From positions 24,279 to 88,278 of IMG/VR virus record IMGVR_UViG_3300028867_000005: 64,000 bases of DNA; one strand, written 5' to 3'. The stretch is from a virus. The translations under genes and the position numbers were made by a program. The notes beneath the pieces were generated by a model. The model had not been told where the DNA came from. It saw only the letters and a program-made list of their open reading frames with translations, and made no database searches. This document shows positions 3,826 to 60,426 of the stretch, one piece after another (positions within the stretch are counted from its first letter, which is position 1; every line of letters starts with the position of its first letter).

Positions 3826-4842
3826 TCAGAAGGGGATATCGCTTTCGCTGAGCACGGCATTGCTGCCGTACTGCTCAATGCGGTCCAACTCGTAGGTGGC
3901 GCGCGGGCCAAACGCCAGCTTCAGCCACAGGCGGCGGAAAACTTCGATGGAGTCGCGGCCACGCTCCAGAATCATCGTGGTGGCCGTGGTCACTTCACAG
4001 AAGCAAACCCCCATGATGTACTTGATGCAGATGGAGTAGTTGTCGGCTTCAACGAGAGTAGGCAGGATGCGCTGGAACATGCCCAGGTTATCCGGGTCAC
4101 CATGGGCCGCATAAAGCTTCTCGAAAACATTACCGACCATCACGCCATCCATCTGGTCGACGGTGCGCCGCGTGGATGGGTCGGATTTGTCTAGCGAGTT
4201 GGCGTGATCGGCGATGATGGGGGCCAGCATCCGCAGCAGTGTGCGCGTCTGCTCGTCCAGCAGGTAGAGCACGTTATTCAGCTTCTTGGCCTCGTCATGG
4301 TCAAGCTCTGCCAGTCGGGCCTTCAGCGCGTTCAGCATGGACGAGTAGTACCAGCCGATTTCAAAGGCGCCAGCGCCGAAAGCCTTCAGCGATTCCTTGC
4401 CTGAAGCCTTGAGTCCGTCAATGGTATCGCTGACGTTGTGCAGCTTGTCGGCCGCGATAACCAGCAGCGCATTGTCCTGCACATACACAGGATTGTGCAT
4501 ACACAGCAAATAGGACTGCTTGCGGTCCATCCAACTGCGCTTTTTTCCAAAGCTATCGAACTTCTTTTCAGAGCACGAAATGACAATGTTTTTTACGGCG
4601 ATGTCGAGTTCACCAACCAATTTCCAGTAGTGCGGCTCACAATCCTCCTTCACATCATGAAGGAGCGCAGCAGCTATCTGGGCTTCTGACCCGCCAGCCA
4701 TTGCCACGATGCTGGCGACCGCGACAGGGTGCCCGATGTAGGGCACGCCGCTGACTTTGCGGACCTGGCCAGCATGGGCGGCCTCGGCCACTTGCATTGC
4801 CGCCACTGTGAGCGGTGTCGTACAGAAGGAAGGGGTTATCAT
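3826..4842 (-). CDS. SpoT/RelA-type HD hydrolase with C-terminal extension
   Basis: 338 residues, first gene of the leftward operon, with a GGAGAG ribosome site. The N-terminal 150 residues carry the metal-dependent HD signature of (p)ppGpp hydrolases: His38 in YIGHPVAVA, His62-Asp63 followed by the Glu-Asp pair of HDVKED (66-67), and Asp132 in AADKLHN. No synthetase, TGS or ACT domain is present, so it resembles a small alarmone hydrolase. The C-terminal 180 residues are unassigned. Expected activity is removal of the 3'-diphosphate from (p)ppGpp or a related nucleotide; the exact substrate is inferred. Confidence 0.8.
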   Translation of the reverse strand: MITPSFCTTPLTVAAMQVAEAAHAGQVRKVSGVPYIGHPVAVASIVAMAGGSEAQIAAALLHDVKEDCEPHYWKLVGELDIAVKNIVISCSEKKFDSFGKKRSWMDRKQSYLLCMHNPVYVQDNALLVIAADKLHNVSDTIDGLKASGKESLKAFGAGAFEIGWYYSSMLNALKARLAELDHDEAKKLNNVLYLLDEQTRTLLRMLAPIIADHANSLDKSDPSTRRTVDQMDGVMVGNVFEKLYAAHGDPDNLGMFQRILPTLVEADNYSICIKYIMGVCFCEVTTATTMILERGRDSIEVFRRLWLKLAFGPRATYELDRIEQYGSNAVLSESDIPF

Positions 4843-27501: not shown

Positions 27502-27747
27502 ATGCCTCTGATTACTATTGCAAACCCGCCCGGTCGTGACGTGATCCATGAGCTTGATCACAGCATGCCGGCCGCATTCCATGCTCAGCTCGGTCTGTTG
27601 CTCAAGACTATCGTGGCGCAGGTAAACGCCAACACCACAGCCATCAATGCTCTGGTGGCCAGTGTGAATGGCATCTGCGTGGCGCTGGATGCAGTGCCCG
27701 TCGCCGGCAGCTTCGTAGCTACCTATGGCGACCTGACTGGCGTGTAA
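27502..27747 (+). CDS. Small helical structural protein
   Basis: 81 residues from ATG at 27502, with AAGGA seven bases upstream; an ATG at 27496 abuts that site and is less likely. Predicted helical and hydrophobic in the middle, and Asn/Ala-rich. A GC-rich hairpin without a T-run (GCCGGCC and GGCCGGC, 27752-27772) follows its stop. Function unknown. Confidence 0.6.
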   Translation: MPLITIANPPGRDVIHELDHSMPAAFHAQLGLLLKTIVAQVNANTTAINALVASVNGICVALDAVPVAGSFVATYGDLTGV

Positions 27748-46735: not shown

Positions 46736-47739
46736 TACCGTGCCACCGGGTAACCGTCGTGCAAAACTCCATCCAGCGTGCGGCCGGCGTGCTTGGTGCC
46801 GACCTTGCGGTAAAGCTGGATTTCGCGATGGTCACCCTTCTCGAAGGGCTTGCCGTCCTCCCATACCCAGTCCTTCAAGGGTGGGCCCGGCGGGCAGTCA
46901 GGGTGGTTGGAAGGCAAATACTCACCCCACTGCTTGAACAGGAACGGCACGCCATGCTGCGCGCAGTCGTCGCGGACCTTGCGTACCCATTCGGCTTTCA
47001 TGATGCGGGCCTTGTCGCCGCTCTCGCCGCCAAGGACAACCCAGTCCAGCTTATTGCCATGGGAGCCCCCATTTTTGGCAGACCGGAAACCATCGAGAGC
47101 ATTGTCTATATGAGTCCGGCCGCCCCATTTCCGCTCGAGCATGGTCAGATTGACCCGGCCAATCATCGGCTCCAGCGATATCCAGCGCACGGCCGCAATC
47201 GTGGTCAGCAACAGCCCAATACGTTTGTTGGCCCATTCCTGATTTTCCACGCTCACGCCAAGCCAGACATTCGGCAGTGGGATAGCCGGCTTGGCCAGCA
47301 CCAGGCCCATGCGCTCGGCGGCCAGTACCAGGCGCTCAGGCTCGCGGGCAATGCCCTGCATGTAGGCCTTCATGACTCCCGGCCGCTTCGTCAGCACCTG
47401 AAAAGTATGCTGGCTGGCCAGCGCCATGACGGCAAAAACCTTATCGATGAAATCCAGCGGCACAGCCTCATAGAACAGGTCAGACATGCTGTTGACAAAA
47501 ATCTTGCTGGGCTTTTTCCATGACAACGGTTCCAGAAGCACGCTATCAATAAGCATGATCTTGCCATTCCACTGACGATGTTCGCCTATAAGGCCAGCAT
47601 AGGGCATTCCTTCGCCATTGAAGCGAAAAGCAATCTTTTCAGCATAGCAGTTCATGCAGCCAGGGCTCACACGGGAGCAGCCGCGCGTGGGTGACCAGGT
47701 GCTATCTGTCCATTCTATTGATGTTTTTCTGACTGCCAT
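46735..47739 (-). CDS. Phage Gp37/Gp68 family protein (DUF5131)
   Basis: 334 residues. The N-terminus KTSIEWTDSTWSPTRGCSRV, with cysteines spaced as CSRVSPGCMNC, is the hallmark of the DUF5131/Gp37-Gp68 family. These are predicted radical-SAM-like enzymes with a three-cysteine cluster for a [4Fe-4S] centre. Later PAIPLPNVWLGVSVENQEWA and VVLGGESGDKARI segments also match. The substrate is not known. An intrinsic terminator separates it from the upstream recombination genes, so it is probably transcribed from its own promoter. Confidence 0.8.
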   Translation of the reverse strand: MAVRKTSIEWTDSTWSPTRGCSRVSPGCMNCYAEKIAFRFNGEGMPYAGLIGEHRQWNGKIMLIDSVLLEPLSWKKPSKIFVNSMSDLFYEAVPLDFIDKVFAVMALASQHTFQVLTKRPGVMKAYMQGIAREPERLVLAAERMGLVLAKPAIPLPNVWLGVSVENQEWANKRIGLLLTTIAAVRWISLEPMIGRVNLTMLERKWGGRTHIDNALDGFRSAKNGGSHGNKLDWVVLGGESGDKARIMKAEWVRKVRDDCAQHGVPFLFKQWGEYLPSNHPDCPPGPPLKDWVWEDGKPFEKGDHREIQLYRKVGTKHAGRTLDGVLHDGYPVAR

Positions 47740-56236: not shown

Positions 56237-56665
56237 ATGAAATTTTGTAATACCTGTGGAACTGAAAAAGCAGAATCAGAATTCCATATACGAAAGGCAT
56301 CTGTTGATGGTCTTTGCGCAAAATGCAAATCGTGTATGACTGATTATGATAAAAAAAGAAGTGGAGACAAAAATAGAGTTGCCAAGCGTAAGGAATATTC
56401 GCTGAGTATTGTCGGTATTGCTGCTGGAAAAAAAGCAAAAGAAAAATATATAGAAAAAAACCCAACGAAAAGAAAGGCTCATATTTTGGTTGGTAATGCA
56501 ATACGTGATAAGAAGCTTTTTAAGGAGCCATGCGAGGTTTGCTTTACAGAAGAAAATATTTGTGCTCATCACGATGACTACGCCAAACCATTGAATGTCC
56601 GCTGGTTATGCGCCCTTCATCACTCGCAATGGCATCAAGAGCATGGGGAATCGCTTAATCCCTAA
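56237..56665 (+). CDS. HNH-like zinc endonuclease, probable insertion
   Basis: 142 residues, TAGGAG ribosome site. N-terminal CNTCG...CAKCKSC zinc finger (about 4-33), basic middle, then CEVCFTEENICAHHDDYAKP with WLCALHHSQWH, the pattern of phage HNH-type free-standing endonucleases. The DNA is far more AT-rich than both neighbours, which suggests acquisition from elsewhere. An intrinsic terminator follows. Whether it cuts DNA is inferred from the motif. Confidence 0.75.
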   Translation: MKFCNTCGTEKAESEFHIRKASVDGLCAKCKSCMTDYDKKRSGDKNRVAKRKEYSLSIVGIAAGKKAKEKYIEKNPTKRKAHILVGNAIRDKKLFKEPCEVCFTEENICAHHDDYAKPLNVRWLCALHHSQWHQEHGESLNP

Positions 56666-56796: not shown

Positions 56797-57054
56797 ATGT
56801 ATACCAAGGTGGTGTACGAGAAAGGCCGCTGCGTCTCGTCCTGCAGCCGGTACTTTATGGAGGGCTGCCTTGCCCGCCACCTGCTCGACAACATGACTCG
56901 TGATGAGCGCCGGGCATGGGTGGAAATGTGGGGTGCCCGGCAGAAACACCTGAGTCATGATGAGCGCCAGACTGCCATGCAGCACATCCGGGATACCGTG
57001 ATTGAAGAGTGGAATTTCAGGAAGTCCCAGCAGACACAGGCGGATGCAGCATGA
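56797..57054 (+). CDS. Small hypothetical replication-region protein
   Basis: 85 residues. ATG at 56797 with GAGGG four bases upstream is preferred to ATG at 56761, which abuts the terminator T-run. The pattern YTKVVYEKGRCVSSCSRYFM then LARHLLDNMTRDERRAWVEM recurs in phage hypothetical proteins near replication genes. Helical C-terminus. ATGA overlap with the nuclease gene. Confidence 0.6.
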   Translation: MYTKVVYEKGRCVSSCSRYFMEGCLARHLLDNMTRDERRAWVEMWGARQKHLSHDERQTAMQHIRDTVIEEWNFRKSQQTQADAA

Positions 57055-57467
57055 GAGAGAGCAGCGTCAGCAAAAAACTAATGCTGTTCCTGAGCCGCGC
57101 CGGTGCGGTCCTATTCAGAAACAATGTCGGCAAGAGCTGGATCAGCTCTAACTTTGTTGAGCTGGGTAACGGTGATGTGCTGGTGAAAAATGCTCGCCGC
57201 TTCCATTCCGGGCTTGTGGACGGGTCGCTTGATCTGGTCGGTTGGTACTCCATTATCATCACCCCGGACATGGTGGGCAGCAAGGTTGCGGTTTTCACGG
57301 CCATTGACTCGAAGCACAGTAATGGTGGTGACCGCAAGAAAGAGAATCAGCTCAATTTTATCTACCAGGTCAATGATGCTGGTGGGATAGCAGGTTTTGC
57401 GTCCTCCGAAGAAGAGGCTATGCAGGTGCTGGAGCGCGGTGTTTCGCGGCTCCGTACCAACGGTTGA
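57051..57467 (+). CDS. VRR-NUC type nuclease
   Basis: 138 residues from ATG at 57051, coupled to the gene before. GAVLFRNNVGKSW, then FHSGLVDGSLDLVGWYSIII, a VFTAIDSKHSNGG catalytic strand (Asp-x-Lys in place of the usual Glu-x-Lys), KKENQLNFIYQVNDAGGIAG and a final EEEA follow the VRR-NUC plan. Such small nucleases resolve or nick branched DNA and often adjoin phage helicase and primase genes. Confidence 0.8.
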   Translation: MRESSVSKKLMLFLSRAGAVLFRNNVGKSWISSNFVELGNGDVLVKNARRFHSGLVDGSLDLVGWYSIIITPDMVGSKVAVFTAIDSKHSNGGDRKKENQLNFIYQVNDAGGIAGFASSEEEAMQVLERGVSRLRTNG

Positions 57468-57497
57468 TGTGTCGGCTAGGTCTGGCCGCCGAACGAT

Positions 57498-57557
57498 CCC
57501 CCAAGTGATCCGCCGACGCATCATTCAATACTTGGGATAATAAGAGCCACTTGGGGG
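57498..57557 (+). promoter_or_regulatory. Leader hairpin covering the primase ribosome site; ACTTGGG repeats
   Basis: CCCCCAAGTG (57498-57507) and CACTTGGGGG (57548-57557) are perfect ten-base complements. The second arm contains the GGGGG ribosome site, five bases before the primase ATG. A third ACTTGGG lies at 57530-57536. In RNA the stem would hide the ribosome site; in DNA the three copies could be protein sites. Confidence 0.55.
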
Positions 57558-57561
57558 CCCA

Positions 57562-60426
57562 ATGAGTAATGAACTGCCAAAAACGTCGCAACAGGATATT
57601 GACCGTGCAAACGCCAATATCCTCGAAGTGGTCGGCGAGTTTATTGACCTGAAAAAACAGGGTGCAGAGTGGGTAGCCTGCTGCCCGTTCCACAATGAAA
57701 AGTCGCCATCGTTCAAGGTTAATCAGAACAAAGAAATGTATTACTGCTTTGGCTGTGGCGCCAGCGGTGATGCCGTCTCGTTCGTGATGGAGTTCAAGGG
57801 CTTCAATTTTCCTGACTCGGTGCGCTACATCAATGGCGAGCCCACGAAGGCCAATATCGTCCGTCCGCCGGCCGACCAGCGCCCATCTTTTGCGCAGCAG
57901 CGCCAGCAAGCACGCCAGTTCGAGCTGATTATTCCGGTACCTGATCATGCTGAGCCTCCGCCCTCTGTTCACTCAAGGCATGGCAAGCTTACTTCCATGT
58001 GGCCTATCCGTATGCCGGATGGCGAACATATCTACGGTTATGTCGTGCGTTTCGATATCCTCCGCCGTGACCCGGAAACCGGTGAAATGCGTCCAGGCAA
58101 GGAAGTGCTGCCGCTGACCTACTCGGTTGATACGGAAACCGGTGAAGAGGGCTGGCGCTGGGCGGCGCTGCCGAAGCCGCGGCCTATATATGGCCTTGAG
58201 CAGTTGGCTACCCCTGGCATGGTTGTGATGGTGGAGGGTGAGAAGACCGTCGACGCAGCGCGCCGGCTCCTGCCACAGTTCCAGGTAATCAGCTACCTGG
58301 GTGGAGGCAAGGCCATCGAGCATACCGACTGGCTTCCGCTGAAGGGTCGCAAGGTGCTGATCATCCGCGATGCCGACCAGGAGGGCTATGTCACCACGTA
58401 CGGCCGGCTGGGCGAGGATGGCGAGCTGGAGCGGCGTGGCCTGGTGCATATCCTGCTCGAGCAGGGTTGCATCGTGAAGTGCTCGGAGCCGCCGGCCGAC
58501 TACCCCAGGGGCTGGGATCTCGCCGACGCTGAGACTGACGGCTGGACACCTGACGACGTGCTGGCATGGGTCAAAAAGCATATGACGGACCCGCTTCCGC
58601 CATCACCCCCGAAGAAAAAAGCATCGGTCGATAATGAGCAGGTACCGGAGCCTGACGCGCACGACGAAATGATGGCCGACCGCTTTGCAGATGAAGAGGA
58701 CGGCGAGCAAGAGGTAATGCTTGATCAGTCTGATCTGCCACCCCAGCCGAAAAGCACGGCAGGCATTGACGGCCACAATCAGCCATGGGATTTCCTGGGC
58801 TATGACCGGGACTACTACTTTATCTACCACCACGGTAAAAAGCAGATCCTGACGCTTACCGTCGGCAGTTTTGGAAAGAATGGCCTTATTACCCTGGCGC
58901 CGCTCAACTGGTGGGAAAAAAGCGATTTCATGGCGAACAAGAAAAAGCCTGAAATTGACACAGATGCTGCGCTCGATTGGATTGTGCAGGCCTGCATTGC
59001 CAAGGGCGTATTTGATCCATCATGCGTGCGTGGCCGTGGGGCCTGGGAAGACGAAGAACGGCTGGTGTTCCACCTGGGCGACCGCCTGTGGGTGGATGGC
59101 AAGATAACGAACCTGGAGGAAATTAACTCGAAGTTCGTTTATGAGCGCAAATTCAGGATGCCCACGCTACCTGAAACAGCGCTGACTACAGCCGAGGGCC
59201 AGCACATACTGGAAATCTGCCGCAAGTTCCGCTGGAGTATGCCGGCCAGTGGTGCCTTGCTGGCAGGCTGGATGGCGCTGGCGCCGATTTGCGGGGCATT
59301 GGCGTGGCGTCCGCACATTTGGGTTACCGGTGGCGCCGGCTCAGGCAAGAGCACCATCATGGAGTTCCTGCACTGGCTTATGAATGGCATGGATAAGTAT
59401 GCCCAGGGCAACAGCTCCGAGGCCGGTATCCGCCAGAAGCTGGCGGGTGACGCAATCCCTGTGCTGTTCGATGAGTCGGAGTCGAATACCGAAAAGGACG
59501 CGAACCGGATGCAGAGCGTGCTTTCGCTTATCCGCCAGTCCAGCTCCGACAGCGCGGCAGAGACATTCAAGGGTACGCAGTTTGGCAATGCCGTCAGCTA
59601 TCACGTTCGCTCCATGTTTTGCCTGAGCTCGATCCAGGTGGCGCTTACCCAGCAGGCCGACGTTGAGCGCTTGTCTGTCCTGCGCCTGCGGCCGAAGCGC
59701 GACAAGGCGCCCAAGGCATCGAAGGCTGACGAGTGGATAAAGCTGCGCGACTCCATATATGCACTGCAAACTGACAAGACAGTACCTGGCCGGCTCTTTT
59801 TGCGCTCTCTGAAATTGATCCCGATCATCCGGGTCAACATAGAGCTTTTTTCCCATGTCTGCACGAAGCGCTTTGGTACTCGGCGCGAGGGTGACCAGTA
59901 TGGCGCCCTGCTGGCCGGCTGCTGGTCGCTGGTATCAAATGAGCTGGTGACAGAGCAGCAGGCTGAAGAGTTGGTGAACACGTTCAACTGGGACGAGTTC
60001 ACAGAGAATTCAGAGACGGAGGAAAGTGAGAAGGCATTGAGCGCGCTCATGGAAGCCCACCTGCGCATAGGTAACCTGACCCTGACGGTCTTTGAAGTGA
60101 TTACCATGGCCAGCAACGCGGTGCAGGGCGGCAATCCGCCACTGACCACCGATGAGGCCGGCCGGGTGCTGCGGCGGTATGGCATGGCTATCCGCGGGGC
60201 CGATCTGCTGCTGGCCAACACCAGCATGGCGCTTCAGCACCTGATGGAGAATACCCCGTTCGGTGCGGATCTCCGCGGCCAGCTGAGGCGCCTTCCTGGC
60301 GCCGCCTCCAATGACAATAAAACGGTGAAGTTCAACGGTGTCGGCAGCAAGGTAATGTCCCTGCCGCTCGAGCTGATCATTTCCGACTATCAGCCGCGGC
60401 TTGTGGCTGATGATTCTCCAATCTGA
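57562..60426 (+). CDS. Primase-helicase fusion
   Basis: 954 residues. CHC2-type zinc finger (Cys41, His44, Cys62, Cys65) in CCPFHNEKSPSF...YYCFGC. A TOPRIM-like domain follows with VVMVEGEKTVDAARR (about 220) and LIIRDADQEG (about 266). An acidic linker precedes a helicase domain with Walker A GGAGSGKST (about 590) and Walker B PVLFDESE. It should make primers and unwind DNA at the fork. The 3' end overlaps the convergent regulator gene by 37 bases. Confidence 0.9.
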   Translation: MSNELPKTSQQDIDRANANILEVVGEFIDLKKQGAEWVACCPFHNEKSPSFKVNQNKEMYYCFGCGASGDAVSFVMEFKGFNFPDSVRYINGEPTKANIVRPPADQRPSFAQQRQQARQFELIIPVPDHAEPPPSVHSRHGKLTSMWPIRMPDGEHIYGYVVRFDILRRDPETGEMRPGKEVLPLTYSVDTETGEEGWRWAALPKPRPIYGLEQLATPGMVVMVEGEKTVDAARRLLPQFQVISYLGGGKAIEHTDWLPLKGRKVLIIRDADQEGYVTTYGRLGEDGELERRGLVHILLEQGCIVKCSEPPADYPRGWDLADAETDGWTPDDVLAWVKKHMTDPLPPSPPKKKASVDNEQVPEPDAHDEMMADRFADEEDGEQEVMLDQSDLPPQPKSTAGIDGHNQPWDFLGYDRDYYFIYHHGKKQILTLTVGSFGKNGLITLAPLNWWEKSDFMANKKKPEIDTDAALDWIVQACIAKGVFDPSCVRGRGAWEDEERLVFHLGDRLWVDGKITNLEEINSKFVYERKFRMPTLPETALTTAEGQHILEICRKFRWSMPASGALLAGWMALAPICGALAWRPHIWVTGGAGSGKSTIMEFLHWLMNGMDKYAQGNSSEAGIRQKLAGDAIPVLFDESESNTEKDANRMQSVLSLIRQSSSDSAAETFKGTQFGNAVSYHVRSMFCLSSIQVALTQQADVERLSVLRLRPKRDKAPKASKADEWIKLRDSIYALQTDKTVPGRLFLRSLKLIPIIRVNIELFSHVCTKRFGTRREGDQYGALLAGCWSLVSNELVTEQQAEELVNTFNWDEFTENSETEESEKALSALMEAHLRIGNLTLTVFEVITMASNAVQGGNPPLTTDEAGRVLRRYGMAIRGADLLLANTSMALQHLMENTPFGADLRGQLRRLPGAASNDNKTVKFNGVGSKVMSLPLELIISDYQPRLVADDSPI

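Follow-up and report, generated by a model that had tools for sequence, protein, structure and literature searches.

The leader of a phage primase-helicase gene raises the question of how the repeats that surround its ribosome site could act on expression of this gene. In the window, which is the whole stretch of 64,000 nucleotides that was analysed, this leader lies between an open reading frame at 57009-57467 and the primase-helicase gene. As stated in the initial annotation, it holds a perfect 10-base inverted repeat, CCCCCAAGTG at 57498-57507 and CACTTGGGGG at 57548-57557, with 100 % complementarity and 40 nt between the arms. The ribosome site of the primase-helicase gene, GGGGG (57553-57557), is located inside the 3' arm, 4 nt 5' of the ATG at 57562, while the heptamer ACTTGGG occurs at 57530-57536 between the arms and again within the 3' arm. 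The sequence comparisons presented here point to a cis-acting translational switch in the primase-helicase leader, a reading to which we assign a probability of about 0.8. Further upstream, between the gene for a single-strand-binding protein and the primase, a 142-aa open reading frame (56237-56665) shows a CxxC/H pattern and appears HNH-nuclease-like by eye.

On its own a 10-mer repeat is weak evidence, since ten positions with perfect 10-mer inverted repeats at 3-60 nt spacing occur in the window, against 4.35 (sd 2.7) under a first-order Markov model. A second inverted repeat (57465-57476/57512-57523), absent from the initial annotation, interleaves with the first, and pairing of the arms would thus form a pseudoknot. 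The unguided MFE fold of 57466-57522 is a three-way junction (-22.2 kcal/mol; z -2.26), with 5/200 shuffles as good, in which an 11-pair P1, UA, a 3-pair P2, GAAC, P3, a single C and P1' follow in order. The 5' arm, 57498-57507, is the P3 loop plus its closing pair, so that the hairpin initially proposed gives way to a pseudoknot formed by the apical loop of a junction stem. The parts of the element are as follows:

57466-57476, + strand: P1 5' strand (GATGTGTCGGC), beginning within the upstream gene's stop codon.
57477-57478, + strand: J12, the UA of a conserved CUAG, aligned to the int-alpA consensus by cmscan and also by the model R2 (below).
57479-57490, + strand: P2, a short 3-pair hairpin (GGU-CUGGCC-GCC) of the MFE fold, degenerate relative to that of the relatives.
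57491-57494, + strand: J23, GAAC, the counterpart of a conserved CGAAA in the RF02996 and R2 alignments.
57495-57510, + strand: P3 hairpin of the MFE fold (GAUC-[CCCCAAGU]-GAUC), the loop of which (57499-57506) is the putative switch strand.
57512-57522, + strand: P1 3' strand (GCCGACGCATC), from the inverted repeat and the MFE fold.
57530-57536, + strand: near arm, ACTTGGG, the first partner of the P3 loop, in a pseudoknot that would leave the ribosome site free.
57548-57557, + strand: second copy, CACTTGGGGG, over the ribosome site, the competing partner of the same P3 loop.
57562-60426, + strand: primase-helicase gene, 954 aa, with a CHC2 zinc ribbon (PF01807, 7.8e-31) and a weak AAA match (PF13476, E 1.5e-4, under its cut-off).

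Both ACTTGGG copies are able to pair with the P3 loop, one at a time, and the two pseudoknots exclude each other because the 5' arm is the P3 loop of the three-way junction. The third heptamer is thereby a competing partner strand for this loop. In the window, the duplex of loop and near arm amounts to -11.0 kcal/mol and that of the 8-nt loop and the ribosome-site copy to -14.2 kcal/mol, or -18.5 kcal/mol with the closing pair opened. Taken alone, 57480-57600 folds no better than its shuffles (z +1.28). In a pseudoknot-free fold the UUGGG of the near arm can alternatively pair with CCCAA just 5' of the ATG (57530-57562), enclosing the ribosome-site copy. When the 64 gene starts of the window were scored for a strand able to pair with either of two mutually exclusive partners, of which the second lies at the start codon, the primase leader ranked first, with a tandem score of 45.5 (next gene start 40.0; mean 26.0, sd 7.3). 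This score was matched by 1/500 Markov versions of the leader, and its double-match score was reached in 0/200 shuffles of the downstream stretch. The gene start ranking second, at 27541, was rejected as it has no such core by eye.

A protein scan of viral contigs found the window gene only in the same phage, in five other contigs with identical leaders, so that there is no covariation within its own lineage. A nucleotide search of phages and plasmids with the window leader gave no match, and the Dolphis primase as query returned one locus. The same leader layout precedes tblastn homologues of the primase in the Pseudomonas phages Dolphis, Jeremy and Touem01, Bordetella phage PHB04, Aeromonas phage ST4, Morganella phage Mecenats66, Enterobacter phage phiT5282EW and Yersinia phage fHe-Yen8-01, and the switch occurs with a different core in Acinetobacter phage Acjo_20. 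Among the phage-record primase leaders read by eye (14 of the 15 fetched, L020 being left out), the switch is present in nine, L014 with its different core among them, and absent from the other five. The P3 loops of these phages differ, each being matched by both downstream copies before a homologous gene. In Dolphis TTCTGCTGA, the near arm TCAGCAGAA and the ribosome-site copy GGCAGAAG have changed in sequence yet still match, and in fHe-Yen8-01 the loop CGATCCTT occurs with AAGGATCGAA before the ATG. Further leaders with the element were distinguished among 80 viral-contig loci (73 of the 76 new loci were inspected, with L043, L062 and L096 dropped beforehand) and 69 genome loci. The alignment of nine leaders has 94.4 % of its cells paired and 18 double-change cells, against 4.9 when shuffled; the first test alignment was made without the cores of L017, L018, L022 and the window. 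A covariance model of nine primase leaders (R1), built without the window, matches leaders in only 32 of 94 sources, including its own nine members and several duplicate pairs, and many primase homologues are thus devoid of the element. Its match at L044 is not at a leader, and with default filters it did not find the window site.

Some leaders vary this design. By eye, the same arrangement of loop, near arm and ribosome site occurs in the L014 leader (1604), L032 (2751-2840) and L059 (2711-2820), with junctions free of the conserved CUAG/CGAA letters and, in L059, one copy only. In seven siblings (L015 1228, L067 2725, L088 2740, L011 1794, L013 1273, L035 2815 and L041 2824), an open reading frame of 11-15 codons stands just before the primase start and opens at a start codon 3' of the ribosome-site copy (e.g. 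MSNKFGGVIYE, MNNQNGGHLYE and MTKQRGSVAYE, each followed by a stop codon). A leader peptide coupled to the primase is a possible reading of this sequence pattern.

Comparison against Rfam places the element close to a known family. The stretch 57300-57800 matches int-alpA (RF02996) at 57469-57536 with 18.3 bits (E 0.28 over 501 bases), which is below the curated cut-off of 35.8 bits and leaves the window element outside the family by that rule; across the whole window, none of 4227 Rfam families was found above its curated cut-off. At E <= 10, RF02996 matches the whole 88-kb phage only at the window site (18.3 bits, E 0.0117); it matches Dolphis twice, with the higher score (15.2 bits, E 0.075) at the primase leader. 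In three more switch-carrying phages it has no match, and weak matches also occur in 7/14 control genomes at the same loose limit. Among the int-alpA junction letters, CUAG and CGAA are present in the window and CU only partly, J31 being a single C in the MFE fold.

Members of int-alpA were matched in 36/274 genomes of one class (35 above the cut-off) and in 5/190 of a second class (three above the cut-off). Their cores show P1, CUAG, P2, CGAA, P3, CU and P1', with 95.6 % of cells paired and 56 double-change cells against 16.0 shuffled in 18 cores. As in the window, the order of parts is P1, UAG, P2, CGAA, P3, CU, P1', a T-rich spacer and an AGG-type arm, with the near arm in each element and a second copy over the ribosome site in most of them. 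In Caballeronia L173, for example, TGAAGG and then TGAAGGAG lie opposite the loop CTCCTTCA, with CGCATG next. The Rfam model (71 positions) stops at the near arm, and the second copy lies outside it. The window differs in its shorter P2 and in the gene behind it, a primase-helicase. Going by the family name, int-alpA is placed between integrase and alpA genes; the window element lies elsewhere, and elements sharing the core 17-mer described below precede many other genes.

Models built from one group detect elements of the other. R1 finds the int-alpA loci L192 (2.3e-5), L188 (1e-4) and L193 (2.6e-4), and two more (0.0029 and 0.0043), in the right place, while R2, built from 18 int-alpA elements, finds the phage primase leaders L041 (0.0021) and L033 (0.041). 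With default filters R2 did not find the window site; with filters off its best match in the 64-kb window is 57469-57519 on the + strand (17.0 bits, E 0.059), with the second best, 47257-47295 (16.3 bits), close behind. The latter lacks most of P3 and was taken as chance. A mixed model from 27 elements (R3) gives the window site 9.2 bits, its fourth-ranked match in 50 kb, and detects 6/321 genomes only; the elements for R1, R2 and R3 were selected from those found. A joint MAFFT alignment of int-alpA and phage cores misplaced P3 and P1' and was not used. By sequence comparison, the window element is related to int-alpA but divergent, falling outside the family by Rfam's rule, and int-alpA elements appear to be switches of this same kind. 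This orphan family, typed 'Gene; sRNA' in Rfam, appears to be wrongly classed as an sRNA.

Several further observations concern this family. By eye, the ribosome-site copy often lies in a small hairpin loop in the int-alpA elements L173, L188, L190, L195 and L196 (e.g. GCGC-UUGAAGGA-GCGC), where the second pairing would be a loop-loop contact. Int-alpA-like stretches in Enterobacter phage Tyrion (L337, 1501-1590) and Salmonella phage BIS08P22 (L338, 1501-1585) lie near late genes (terminase, lysis), ahead of small uncharacterised open reading frames. The contig L211, which also has an int-alpA element, carries a GP20-b RNA (RF03003) above the cut-off at 4621-4676. In the Hydrogenophaga genomes L113 (607-666) and L130 (606-665), R2 matches (22.1 bits, E 0.043) are found away from the primase gene.

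Both loop pairings were evaluated in elements selected solely by the 17-mer CTAGGGTAGCTCCCGAA, a sequence confined to the J12-P2-J23 core. This set is free of choice by eye, unlike the 32 primase leaders, which were picked by eye, and the int-alpA set, the start codons of which were so chosen. The 17-mer occurs in at least 120 viral stretches, and the 80 loci listed among these were analysed. Six of these have no start codon by the rule used; removal of duplicates left 67 elements, and collapsing of identical P3 stems 55. Twelve of the 20 Rfam-scanned loci among the matches listed are int-alpA above the cut-off. In 50/67 listed elements the double match is reached by at most 5 % of shuffled downstream stretches, while 17/67, one of them without a double match, fall short of this 0.05 level, and 37/67 beat 95 % of swapped P3 stems. 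Loops match their own near stretch with a score of 12.74, against 7.97 permuted, and their own ribosome-site stretch with 14.48, against 10.41 (n=55, among the matches listed), with 0/5000 permutations as good in either case. The same holds for each pairing in 31 primase leaders, that of the window among them, and in the int-alpA genome set (n=25; 31 loci listed, six dropped as cut by contig ends), although these counts are not strict probabilities, the elements being related. The loops need not resemble an anti-Shine-Dalgarno sequence, as seen in L230 (TGAATCA with TGATTCA and GATTCA) and L260 (GTGTCTGA with TCAGACA and TCAGACAC). A second viral pattern scan gave one contig, which was already known. 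Sequence comparison across the relatives establishes the predicted junction and both predicted loop pairings, and translational control of a replication gene, as proposed at the outset, is well supported by it, in a form other than a simple hairpin.

In the proposed switch, the leader RNA would fold into the three-way junction of P1, P2 and P3, and the apical loop of P3 would have two mutually exclusive downstream partners, the near arm or its second copy over the ribosome site. Pairing with the near arm would give a compact pseudoknot with the ribosome site free and translation on, while pairing with the second copy would cover the ribosome site and turn translation off. As the second copy ends about 1-13 nt from the start codon in nearly all elements, the latter pairing should block initiation. 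This on/off assignment is our inference, and so are the trigger and any effect on translation. The stronger partner is the ribosome-site copy in 31/55 viral elements among the matches listed (near arm 18/55; equal 6/55), in 23/32 primase leaders (near arm 6/32) and in 22/25 int-alpA elements (near arm 1/25). Transcription produces the near arm ahead of the second copy, yet the later pairing is in most elements the more stable one. The loop would therefore probably stay with the near arm either through a factor that binds the conserved junction, be it a small molecule, an ion or a protein, or only for a brief period after synthesis of the RNA, and the data fit both.

The window element and its relatives join a conserved core to mutually exclusive expression-platform pairings, a combination also expected of a riboswitch. 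As in translational riboswitches, a conserved junction is coupled to a downstream choice of strands at the ribosome site; riboswitches bind a ligand that alters expression, and the window element shares with them the junction and the strand choice. According to the available text of PMC3014915, no riboswitch has been characterised from T4. Within the text accessible to our literature search, int-alpA is named only in PMC12370729, as a table entry putative in genomes, and 'RF02996' nowhere. Nothing on this class was found in the accessible phage-riboswitch literature, and the original int-alpA survey may hold such observations.

It is unlikely that the arms act by constitutive sequestration, with a long hairpin of 57498-57507 and 57548-57557 lowering primase translation, the third heptamer being incidental, and upstream ribosomes or a later promoter eventually removing the 5' arm, as the available text of PMC3014915 describes for T4 gene e and I-TevI. 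The strength of the 10-bp pairing (the -18.5 kcal/mol above) and these T4 precedents would suit such a role, as would the overlap of the upstream stop codon with P1, by which upstream ribosomes could disturb the junction. However, in other elements the loop fits the near copy independently, as the 0/5000 permutations in three sets indicate, and the junction that lies between the arms shows conservation and covariation. In I-TevI, mobE, segB and gene e the ribosome site lies in a helix and initiation is lowered, and these helices are described in the available text of PMC3014915 without a conserved junction or competing second copy. A nested hairpin of the I-TevI/mobE type, with no competing partner, differs from the window, where P1 and the arms are interleaved and the near copy competes. 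There is nevertheless a parallel with homing endonucleases, in that several genes behind the elements encode HNH/GIY-YIG nucleases.

The genes behind the elements bear on a second alternative, an autogenous operator at which the primase-helicase would bind its own leader, like T4 gp32 and gp43. The element precedes homologous primases in many phages, and the available text of PMC3014915 provides a T4 precedent, including a pseudoknot before gene 32. Like the window element, the latter lies 5' of the start codon of a replication gene and regulates translation, but there it is the gene's own product that binds, spreading across a ribosome site without structure, whereas the window element has one loop with two partner strands, one of them on the ribosome site, and elements of this kind occur before many unrelated genes. 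Among 82 downstream proteins (59 viral, 23 genomic), Pfam distinguished DUF1376 (9), HNH (5), HNH_5 (4), Endonuclease_7 (3), HNH_3 (3), ORF11CD3 (3), Rha (2), NUMOD4 (2), Bro-N (2) and others, with single matches to lambda P, DnaT, integrase and GIY-YIG, and with PHROGs up to 10 primosomal proteins and seven O-like initiators are recognised in addition; these counts overlap on the same proteins, and many of the 82 match nothing. The classes represented include replication initiators, HNH/GIY-YIG nucleases, antirepressors and one integrase. Because the same core precedes unrelated proteins, such as DUF1376 primosomal proteins, HNH/GIY-YIG nucleases, Rha and BRO regulators and an integrase, an operator specific to one protein is quite unlikely, and a shared trigger is more economical.

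A DNA element, the operator array or origin part of the initial annotation, is very improbable: inverted and direct copies do lie within a replication module, and no sigma-70-like promoter was found in 57200-57700, so that transcription is not tied to that stretch, but two of the three alignments have more G-U than A-C where bases are paired (22:2 in A8, which was fitted to structure; 9:0 in A4; 10:9 in A7), and the element is sense-oriented to the gene behind, with its last copy adjoining the start codon of many unrelated genes, an orientation and distance fixed partly by construction as a downstream start was required. Both terminator-like sites found in 57200-57700 are on the minus strand.

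Beyond the translational switch in this leader, int-alpA and its divergent primase-leader relatives may, tentatively and at somewhat less than even odds, represent one large class of phage-borne sensors in which the junction senses an infection signal. This signal, a small molecule, ion or host factor, would set the choice of the loop between the near pseudoknot and the covered ribosome site. If true, such a class would, in phages and prophages alike, set the timing of replication initiators, mobile nucleases, antirepressors and integrases. The int-alpA family, filed as a small RNA without function in the literature found, would gain a testable role as a cis translational switch, and the window would tie it to replicative primase-helicases, where the element does not score as a member. 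The element is common in phages, as reflected in the number of stretches with the exact 17-mer, and lies ahead of genes for the initiation of replication or for DNA mobility, so that many phage programmes could be timed by a single trigger.
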